64,000 nt of DNA. It comes from Micromonospora echinospora. Its GTDB lineage: Bacteria > Actinomycetota > Actinomycetes > Mycobacteriales > Micromonosporaceae. A model generated the notes under the pieces. It had not been told where the DNA came from and did no database searches. It saw only the letters and a list, made by a program, of their open reading frames with translations. The position numbers were made by a program, and so were the translations under genes. Positions 47,916-50,508 of this stretch are shown here, piece after piece. Within the stretch, counting starts at the first letter, position 1, and each line of letters starts with the position of its first letter. The DNA is taken from contig NZ_JACHJC010000001.1 of assembly GCF_014203425.1 (NCBI RefSeq), positions 1,116,001 through 1,180,000 on the forward strand. The letters run 5' to 3'.

Positions 47916-48944
47916 TCAGAGCATCGACATGTGGACGTGGTCGGTGTGGTTCGACGGTCCGCTGTACGAACTCCAGCCGGTGGCCGGGAACCAGATCTGC
48001 CGGTTCCAGATGACGTAGTAGATGCCCAGCCGGTCGGCGTTGCGGATGAGGAAGGCGGCCACGTCGTTGCCGTACTTGCGGGTGTCGTTGTTGTGCCAGG
48101 GCGCGAACCCGCTGCTCTGCAGCGACCAGTCGCACGCCTTGCCCTTGGGGTGCTCCCACGGCCCGCCCGGCCGGTAACAGCCCACGAAGCGCGTATAGCC
48201 GGCGCGCCGGACCTCCTTGTAGGCGTGCAGCGTCCGCGGCGTGACGCAGCCCGAGGTGGTCGGGTCTTTCTCGCTGCACGACTCGGCCTTCCAGCCGCCG
48301 TCGCCGGTGCGGCCGGGGCCGATCTTGGCGACCGGTGAGGTGGCGTCGACCAGGCCGCCGGTGAAGCCGAGGCCGCCGACGAGCTTGAGGGCGCGCTCGG
48401 CCTGCACCTTCTCGCGCTCCATCGCGTTCTTCTGCTTCTCCTGCTCGCGCACCTCGGCGTCGAGCGCGATCTTGGCCTGCTCGGCGCGGGTCTTGACCGC
48501 GTTGATGGCGGCCAGGCGCTGCGCGTTGAGCAGGTTCAGCTCGTCCAGGGCGTTGACGCGGCGGACGAACGAGTCGGGCGAGTTGCTCTCCAGCAACATC
48601 GCCATCGCGCCCATCCGGCCGGTCCGGTAGGACTGGGCGGCGAGTTGGTTGACCTGCGGGCTGAGCGCCTCGAGTTCGGCCTGTGCCGTCTGCACCTCGG
48701 CGGCCAGCCGACGCTGGCGGTCCTGCGACTTGGCCAGCTTCGCCTTCGCCTGGAGGAAGGCGCGGTTGGCGGTGTCGATCGCCTCGGTGATGAGCGGTGG
48801 TTCGCCGTCCTCCTCGTGCCCGGACGGCTTGTTCGGGGCCGCCGCGGCGGGGGCCGCCGTCGCCGCGTTCGGCCCGGCCAGCACTGCCAGCGAGGCCAGC
48901 ACGGCCACCAGGGGTGTCAGCCAGCGGCGCAGGGGTGGCGTCAC
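47916..48944 (-). CDS. Secreted coiled-coil cell-wall protein with C-terminal peptidase-like (ARB_07466) domain
   Basis: 342-aa exported protein. The signal peptide (PLRRWLTPLVAVLASLAVLA) ends near residue 31. Residues 50-180 are a long coiled coil (AKAKLAKSQDRQRRLAAEVQ; AQIALDAEVREQEKQ-like helices), as in NlpC/P60 hydrolases. The C-terminal domain (about 220-342) has GCVTPRTLHAYKEVRR, KGKACDWS and NHTDHVHMSML with clustered His/Asp, resembling the D-Ala-D-Ala peptidase-like ARB_07466 domain. The leader contains a c-di-AMP riboswitch, fitting a role in cell-wall remodelling. GTG start follows GGAAGGGAA. Confidence 0.85.
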   Translation of the reverse strand: MTPPLRRWLTPLVAVLASLAVLAGPNAATAAPAAAAPNKPSGHEEDGEPPLITEAIDTANRAFLQAKAKLAKSQDRQRRLAAEVQTAQAELEALSPQVNQLAAQSYRTGRMGAMAMLLESNSPDSFVRRVNALDELNLLNAQRLAAINAVKTRAEQAKIALDAEVREQEKQKNAMEREKVQAERALKLVGGLGFTGGLVDATSPVAKIGPGRTGDGGWKAESCSEKDPTTSGCVTPRTLHAYKEVRRAGYTRFVGCYRPGGPWEHPKGKACDWSLQSSGFAPWHNNDTRKYGNDVAAFLIRNADRLGIYYVIWNRQIWFPATGWSSYSGPSNHTDHVHMSML

Positions 48945-48960
48945 AGTGTTCCCTTCCGTC

Positions 48961-49075
48961 GGCCGCCGACCGGGTTAGCTGACGGGTTCGGGACGGAAGT
49001 GGCCCCTACCGCTCGCGCGGATTCACCCCATGTACCTGGTTCCCCGGCTCGCCCGCAGGCGATTGGGCGGCGGCA
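48961..49075 (-). ncRNA. Cyclic di-AMP (ydaO/yuaA-type) riboswitch
   Basis: Read on the minus strand, the leader contains the conserved ydaO blocks in order: GGGCGAGCCGGGGAACC, then GGGGTGAATCCGCG, GGTAGGGGCCACTTCCG, and the near-invariant CCCGAACCCGTCAGCTAACC. The terminal P1 helix is formed by GCCGCCG (minus strand of 49068-49074) and CGGCGGC (48962-48968). It ends about 17 bp before the cell-wall gene start. In Actinobacteria this class commonly precedes secreted cell-wall hydrolases and turns them off when c-di-AMP is high. I am confident in the class; exact ends are approximate. Confidence 0.9.
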
Positions 49076-49233
49076 CCGCTGGCGCCGGTGCGCGCCTTCG
49101 GCGGTGACCGGCAGCGAGGTTACCCGACAGCACTCCTGCGGATCTACGTCCGGAAGCCGACCAATAGCGAGATTTCGCCGTGGCCCGCCGTGACCAGCAT
49201 CGCGTTTGAAATCGATGGTCACCGTGCGGAGTT

Positions 49234-50508
49234 TCACCATGTCGCCTCCGTACTCCTTCCGCCGCCGAGCGCCTCCAGCGCGTCGTCGCGTCCGGCCGGC
49301 GGACGGGGCGCGGGGGCCGCCGGCTCCGCGCCGGTCGCACGCCGTCCGGCGGTGGTCACGATCGCGGCGAGTGCGGTCGTCAGCGGTACGGCCGCGATCA
49401 GGCCGAGCGTGGCCACCGCGCTGCGGACGATCTCCTGGGCGAGGAACTCGCTCGTGAGGATCTGGCTCACCGGGCGGGAGTCGGCGACCAGCAGGAGCAG
49501 GAGCGGCAGCGAGGCGCCCGCGTACGCCAGCACGATGGTGTTGACGGTGGACGCGATGTGGGCCCGGCCGACGCGGGTCGCCGCCCGGTAGAGCTGCCGC
49601 CGGGACAGTCCCGGGTTGGCGTGCGCGAGTTCGGTGACGGTGGCCGCCTGGGTGACGGTGACGTCGTCCAGCACGCCCAGCGAGCCGATGATGATGCCCG
49701 CCAGCAGCAGCCCGTGCAGGTCCACGTCGGCCCGGAACATGGACAGGGTGGTGGCGTCCTCGCTGCCGAAGCCGGTCAGGTGGGTGGCGGACGTGGCGAG
49801 CAGGCCGAGCACGCCGGTGATCACCAGGCTGCCCAGCGTGCCGAGCACCGCCACCGACGTCTGCGCGGTGATCCCGTGCGTCAAATAGAGCACCACGAAC
49901 ATGATCAACGCGGCGCCCACGATCGCCACCAGCAGCGGCGGCTGGCCGCCGCCGATGCCGGGAAGCACGAAGCCGAGCAGGATCGCGAAGCTGGCCACCA
50001 GGCCGCCGAGCGCGGCGAGTCCGCGCCAGCGCCCGAATGCCACGATCGCGGCGGCGAAGAGCACCAGCAGCCAGATCAGCGGGGTGCCGCGCTGGTGCTC
50101 GGCGATGTTGTAGGACTTCACCGACGGGTCGGCCGGGTCGATCAGCTCGACCAGGACGATCTTGTCGCCGACCTCGACCCGTGGTGCCCCCGGCCCGGCC
50201 GGCAGCGGCGTCTCGACCTGCCGGCCCGTGTCCGGGCCCTGCTCGGCGGTGACCGTCGCGGTGCCGCAGGGGCCGCCCGCGCCCTCCGGGGCCTCCGGGG
50301 TCGGCGGGCAGGGTTCGGTGACCACCCGGGTCACGGTGCCGTGGTAGCGGGGGACGTCCGCGCCGCCGACCGGCTCCCGGTCCTGCCGGGGCCAGAGCAC
50401 CAGCGCCGCGATCACGGTGAGCGCGAACAGCGGTACCACCACGGCGACGAGCAGCCGCCGTACGCCCGGTGGCGTGGGCGGTGCGGGGCGGGTGTGGTCG
50501 GCACCCAA
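49234..50508 (-). CDS. YibE/F family integral membrane protein
   Basis: 424-aa membrane protein. One helix near residue 20 (LLVAVVVPLFALTVIAALVL) and an extracellular domain with an OB-like VEVGDKIVLVELIDPAD precede seven or so helices bearing the YibE/F core: GLLLAGIIIGSLGVLDDVTV, AATRVGRAHIASTVNTIVLAYAGASLPLL and FLAQEIVRSAVATLGLIAAVPLTT. Function is not established. A TTG start follows GGGAGAG. A 99-codon ORF begins at its stop (ATGGTGA) and runs through the riboswitch region. Confidence 0.92.
   Translation of the reverse strand: MGADHTRPAPPTPPGVRRLLVAVVVPLFALTVIAALVLWPRQDREPVGGADVPRYHGTVTRVVTEPCPPTPEAPEGAGGPCGTATVTAEQGPDTGRQVETPLPAGPGAPRVEVGDKIVLVELIDPADPSVKSYNIAEHQRGTPLIWLLVLFAAAIVAFGRWRGLAALGGLVASFAILLGFVLPGIGGGQPPLLVAIVGAALIMFVVLYLTHGITAQTSVAVLGTLGSLVITGVLGLLATSATHLTGFGSEDATTLSMFRADVDLHGLLLAGIIIGSLGVLDDVTVTQAATVTELAHANPGLSRRQLYRAATRVGRAHIASTVNTIVLAYAGASLPLLLLLVADSRPVSQILTSEFLAQEIVRSAVATLGLIAAVPLTTALAAIVTTAGRRATGAEPAAPAPRPPAGRDDALEALGGGRSTEATW

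Follow-up and report, generated by a model that had tools for sequence, protein, structure and literature searches.

A c-di-AMP riboswitch whose pseudoknot strand overlaps the Shine-Dalgarno sequence of a probable VldE-type endopeptidase gene in Micromonospora echinospora

How might a c-di-AMP riboswitch that ends almost at a start codon control its gene, and what does that gene encode? In Bacillus subtilis, ydaO is a terminator-type switch, with an intrinsic terminator between aptamer and gene. A stretch of 64 kb from the soil bacterium Micromonospora echinospora (the window) carries on its minus strand a leader that a sequence-only reading had assigned to the ydaO class, directly before a secreted coiled-coil cell-wall protein. 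We propose, at a probability of roughly three in four, that on binding c-di-AMP this aptamer switches off translation of a secreted peptidoglycan L,D-endopeptidase, operating through a loop-tail pseudoknot over the Shine-Dalgarno sequence (SD).

Results

The covariance-model check bears out the riboswitch assignment. Using cmscan on the 64-kb window, RF00379 matched at 83.3 bits, far above the cut-off of 38 (E 6.6e-18), over its full length (model positions 1-134 of 134), and it was the sole Rfam family to reach its gathering score in the whole window (Table 1). The conserved block that had been quoted for the leader, CCCGAACCCGTCAGCTAACC, lies at 48992-48973. A P1 pairing is also present, in the Rfam register CGCC (49069-49066) / GGCG (48967-48964) and extendable to six pairs; a match of 7 pairs (GCCGCCG/CGGCGGC), the length first described, exists in a register other than Rfam's. 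The interval first given, 48961-49075, was slightly short: the Rfam match extends as far as 48949, and functionally the element runs up to the start codon, at 48942. The placement directly before the gene holds in the window, where 4 nt separate the aptamer match from the GTG of the 342-aa open reading frame (ORF), and is kept in orthologues. The upstream neighbour on the same strand, a YibE/F-like gene, ends at 49234.

Table 1. Features of the riboswitch locus in the window
Feature	Positions	Strand	Basis
Probable -10 box TAACCT	49117-49122	-	Pattern in orthologue loci; inferred
c-di-AMP (ydaO) riboswitch aptamer, RF00379	48949-49079	-	cmscan
Hairpin GGG (49006-49004) / CCC (48992-48990), loop carrying the anti-SD	48990-49006	-	Rfam alignment structure line and sequence
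Pseudoknot loop strand CUUCCGU (anti-SD)	48993-48999	-	Complementarity and covariation over 92 leaders
Pseudoknot tail strand ACGGAAG, overlapping the SD	48953-48959	-	Sequence and covariation
SD GGAAGGG	48951-48957	-	Sequence; 6 nt before GTG, within the last part of the aptamer match
Secreted 342-aa protein, GTG start, RipC-like coiled coil and VldE-type L,D-endopeptidase domain	47916-48944	-	ORF, homologues, PDB matches
Coiled-coil part, residues about 49-188	48381-48800	-	RipC similarity; long helices in structure model
VldE/MT3-type catalytic domain, residues about 227-342	47919-48266	-	R258, H265, D272, H333, H336, H338

Anti-SD sequences are familiar from 16S rRNA, and a similar word occurs within the aptamer. 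The loop of the hairpin just 5' of CCCGAACCCGTCAGC / CCGAACCCGUCAGC is exactly complementary, over 7 nt, to the tail directly 3' of P1, and this tail contains most of the SD. We spotted the complementarity first in the window and then, by eye, in copies preceding several other kinds of gene. Folding of the single leader sequence was uninformative, being no better than shuffles (z 0.48). The pairing as such is known from ydaO aptamers and is not new. A pseudoknot of 5-6 bp in the bound aptamer is stated, after Nelson 2013, in the RNA-Puzzles report (PMC5393176), and the 108-nt construct of puzzle 12, crystallised with c-di-AMP (PDB 4QLM/4QLN), has, as read from its printed sequence, a loop (CUCCUUCG) and a 3' tail (CGAAGGAG) that are complementary at the same places. 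Unlike in that construct, the tail in the window doubles as the SD of the gene directly behind it.

Purine-rich tails and pyrimidine loops might complement each other as a mere by-product of composition, leaving the SD unsequestered. The pairing was examined across the class. The core pattern recognised 254 of 279 fetched loci, and many of the remaining 25 are protein loci that lack a riboswitch; the class loci comprised 29 from the search itself and 100 more places among the matches listed. From 225 unique leaders (score up to 3) we took 92 representatives below 85% identity. Of these, 80 belong to the class set, 11 come from the first 149 loci, and L279 derives from a viral-contig record. 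Only contiguous helices were measured, in place of duplex folding with bulges, whose register was too loose. Loops and their own tails averaged -6.23 kcal/mol, against -4.40 (sd 0.21) after re-pairing, and the own pairs were better in 5000 of 5000 trials, with none of the re-pairings as low; the eight shifted controls (four of the loop, four of the tail) all failed to reach significance. The looser duplex measure concurs, with none of 2000 re-pairings as good and no significance for any of nine shifted controls. Related leaders are not independent, and the test corrects for relatedness solely by the 85% cut and the shifted controls. A pattern scan of viral contigs for Bacillota copies, the intended control, returned one locus only.

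Seven loops are without an anti-SD-like word. For L267, L270 and L275 no better tail exists among the 91 others, and for the remaining four, 5 to 11 other tails pair better than their own. The loop of L275 (UGUCGU) matches a tail that is not SD-like (ACGACA). From the class-wide test we take loop-tail pairing to be real, and for L275, if for no other leader, it does not depend on the SD. On the side of composition, re-paired loops and tails still form some helix in 90% of cases because CUUCC and GGAAG are common. The gene's own orthologues also lack any double compensatory change: across their 66 unique leaders, pairs 1-5 do not vary except at pair 1 in a single leader, and there is fraying at the outer end, where 5 leaders have lost pair 6 and 29 have lost pair 7. 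The covariation is a class-wide result. Against the unbroken advantage of own pairs, the failure of every shifted control and at least one unusual loop that pairs with a non-SD-like tail, a purely compositional origin appears very improbable.

The register of SD and tail varies over the 92 leaders. They overlap by at least 3 nt in 29, the group to which the window leader belongs, and by 1-2 nt in 20; the two are separate in 33, where the SD follows the tail at a distance of 0-5 nt in 32 cases and lies upstream of it in one. By the rule applied, 10 leaders had no start codon or SD.

We also considered that c-di-AMP might act on transcription through premature termination, like the B. subtilis switch or, as a review reports (PMC10117811), that of Streptomyces rpfA. 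Consistent with an effect at this level, the presence of the Corynebacterium glutamicum riboswitch is reported to lower transcript by itself, regardless of c-di-AMP (PMC9960051). The B. subtilis type has its intrinsic terminator ahead of the gene, whereas a search of 48850-49350 in the window returned no terminator-like site; the SD falls where the aptamer match ends and the GTG follows closely, which leaves a terminator no room. Rho acting on untranslated mRNA is a conceivable route, though the regulation of rpfA is described as Rho-independent (PMC9960051). The SD is itself part of the covarying pairing. On balance we consider transcriptional control unlikely and favour the translational switch.

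The riboswitch is widely kept with this gene. A scan of species genomes gave 99 stretches encoding a relative, and the best 80 of 99 were retained, all of them named loci and nearly all from Micromonospora, with a few from Salinispora and Verrucosispora. By core pattern, with substitutions allowed, 76 of these 80 carry the riboswitch; one, the Salinispora locus L138 (5 substitutions), is without an Infernal match, so that 75 of the 80 appear intact by pattern. Of the orthologues tested with Infernal, 8 of 8 were confirmed, as was the copy at L055, which belongs to a neighbouring genus; the 11 loci L056-L066, from other genera and more distantly related, had no Infernal match. Among the five exceptions in the best 80 of 99 (L116, L148, L137, L138 and L141), L137 alone gives an Infernal match, at 27.6 bits and below the cut-off. 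L116 (Micromonospora sp. RHAY321) is a second copy of the gene in its genome, without a riboswitch, and L148 (M. endophytica) is an orthologue whose aptamer middle is missing. The other three are the 3 of 3 Salinispora loci in this set, in which the riboswitch, at about 1366-1496, has decayed; SD and VldE-type gene remain there, and the loop fits the SD poorly. This loss is local, because each of the three genomes retains two further copies that score above the cut-off.

Upstream of the aptamer, one pattern recovered a -10-like box in 72 of the same 80 loci (TAACCT in 71, TAGCCT in one); L117, one of the eight pattern misses, reads TAGTCT. TAACCT fits the actinobacterial -10 consensus TANNNT and, judged by its sequence, is a plausible -10 box. 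Between this box and the aptamer, the stretch 49117-49080 shows good conservation across the orthologues displayed (GCCGGTCACCGCCGAAGGCGC, small hairpins), and cmscan gave no Rfam match within it. A candidate MtrA box upstream of the riboswitch (GGTAACC..GGTCACC) was dropped, its half-sites being 15 apart here, against 11 bp in the motif published for Actinoplanes deccanensis (PMC10714768).

The downstream protein had been described as a coiled-coil wall protein that is neither NlpC/P60 nor Rpf. A Pfam search of the 342-aa protein found no NlpC/P60 or other Pfam domain; PF26571 did not match in that search, but the 120 homologues listed of 1077 all have a precomputed PF26571.1 assignment. The coil resembles that of RipC in sequence, by the NCBIfam RipC model (30.8 bits, E 2e-7) and by PDB 8idc (E 3.8e-4; listed as endopeptidase MT2245), which we take to be RipC; its match to PDB 8i6o, presumably an EnvC-type activator complex, is weak (E 0.026). 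The protein is nevertheless not a RipC member, as the model's cut-off of 425 is not reached and the NlpC/P60 domain that accompanies the coil in RipC was not found. Structure matches for the coil were mostly unrelated helical bundles, some with Z as high as that of the VldE match, and the 50 structure matches listed include no RipC or EnvC entry; the likeness of the coil rests on the sequence matches.

Similarity to VldE spans the C-terminal domain, both in sequence (PDB matches) and in predicted fold (a close structural match). VldE residues H301, D308, H375, R294, H370 and H373 (PMC11667670) align with H265, D272, H338, R258, H333 and H336, the first three being zinc ligands, and all six are invariant in 32 of 32 aligned sequences; the GTG start is common to most aligned close homologues. 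The VldE serine S291 is seemingly not kept, the window protein reading GCYR at that place. VldE (Spr1875) of Streptococcus pneumoniae is described as combining its MT3 domain with a LysM domain and a disordered linker, and spr1875 as belonging to the VicRK regulon (PMC11667670). The window protein agrees with VldE in the sequence and the predicted fold of the catalytic domain and in its zinc ligands and its catalytic histidines; it differs in its RipC-like coil and in a gene that lies behind a riboswitch.

Many homologues carry the name 'coiled-coil domain-containing protein', which, together with the resemblance of the coil to RipC and faintly to 8i6o, would suit a non-catalytic protein that, like EnvC, activates a different hydrolase, or one that binds the wall. 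Such a role seems distinctly unlikely given the invariant residues and the close structural match to VldE. The target is instead probably a VldE-type peptidoglycan L,D-endopeptidase, a cell-wall-cutting enzyme, judging from sequence and structure model; as a member of that type it would cut between L-Ala and D-Glu of cross-linked stems. The coiled-coil description is retained and refined, from merely coiled-coil to probable hydrolase, and the exclusion of NlpC/P60 and Rpf is correct. The further suggestion, that the gene adds a non-NlpC, non-Rpf target, is supported for this gene; such targets as a kind are not new (M23, CHAP, C39-like).

In the M. echinospora genome, a single contig of 7.13 Mb, RF00379 has five matches, each scoring higher than the cut-off, and there is one diadenylate cyclase domain (PF02457). 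Its other copies precede a coil plus NlpC/P60 protein, a VldE-type paralogue, an Rpf protein and, at L003, a short ORF followed by a C39-like peptidase. Elsewhere in the class, the four copies examined have M23, CHAP (two) and NlpC/P60 proteins downstream. No VldE-type target was found outside Micromonospora in the 1.5 kb downstream of the informative loci L150-L178 (29, two of them Micromonospora; a few ORFs unresolved).

At L003 (C1:2874619 region) the SD behind the riboswitch serves the short ORF, of 19-28 codons. This ORF is present in 28 of 28 members of the L003 class (relatives L016, L019, L021, L024, L025, L028, L030, L215, L281-L286 and L288-L300; L287, the other locus among the 29 examined, is of another class) and contains LHG in 26. 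Again in 26 of 28, the aptamer core is followed at a distance of 231-286 nt by a gene whose product begins VKH; in both cases tested this product is a C39-like peptidase (PF13529). Differences in the short ORF fall by codon position as 121/64/122, which weakly supports coding. In L187, L190, L202, L206, L210, L230-L232 and L246 the riboswitch is followed by GGAGAAATCCTGTCTACC or alike, with no ATG, GTG or TTG at normal spacing; from these sequences a CTG start is possible.

Discussion

We suggest that, with c-di-AMP bound, the aptamer would fold together with the pseudoknot between CUUCCGU and ACGGAAG, and that the ribosome would be kept off for as long as the pseudoknot holds the tail, because this tail is most of the gene's SD. 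When c-di-AMP falls, the aptamer would loosen, the SD would be freed and the enzyme made. An OFF switch of this kind would have the pseudoknot form only or mainly with ligand; the loop-tail pairing could also form as a plain hairpin without it.

The nearest experimental parallel is the nlpC riboswitch of C. glutamicum, in which c-di-AMP is reported, with reporter support, to lower translation and not mRNA, and for which the authors propose a CTCC-GGAG pairing with the ribosome-binding site (PMC9960051). The two share an aptamer of the ydaO class, the lack of a canonical terminator, a pyrimidine stretch that can pair with the SD, and a wall hydrolase as target, the target domain being NlpC/P60 there and VldE-type here. 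The anti-SD of C. glutamicum is a proposal from one sequence, whereas the pairing test presented here is class-wide and draws on sequence data. Additionally, a review names ydaO as one of the switches in which the ligand-bound RNA conceals the ribosome-binding site (PMC10907184), and the Streptomyces coelicolor switch is said to seem to block it (PMC8079986, citing Haiser 2009 and Block 2010).

The gene would represent a new target, on the evidence of these genomes, for a known riboswitch class, RF00379. We found no literature joining riboswitch, c-di-AMP and Micromonospora, with the tables of most subscription papers outside reach, and on ydaO riboswitches with an endopeptidase in Actinobacteria only the S. 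lividans reannotation, most subscription papers again lying beyond that search. The finding would add to the wall enzymes under c-di-AMP a protein hitherto annotated only as coiled-coil or hypothetical, which is probably an L,D-endopeptidase of the VldE type, itself described only recently.

It also provides sequence evidence on how actinobacterial ydaO switches that lack a terminator may work. Reports place the control at translation in C. glutamicum and at transcription in Streptomyces. Where the pseudoknot lies with respect to the SD makes the question directly testable, our hypothesis being that this register decides between the two. More tentatively, and with the odds against it, the actinobacterial aptamer may be a plug-in lid whose pseudoknot sits on the SD, as in the window, or just upstream of it. 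The placement would then decide whether control stays purely translational or extends to the transcript, and the conflicting reports from C. glutamicum and Streptomyces would fit together. In Micromonospora such a lid would set several chemically different wall hydrolases together (VldE-type twice, NlpC/P60, Rpf and C39-like), one of them via a conserved short ORF.
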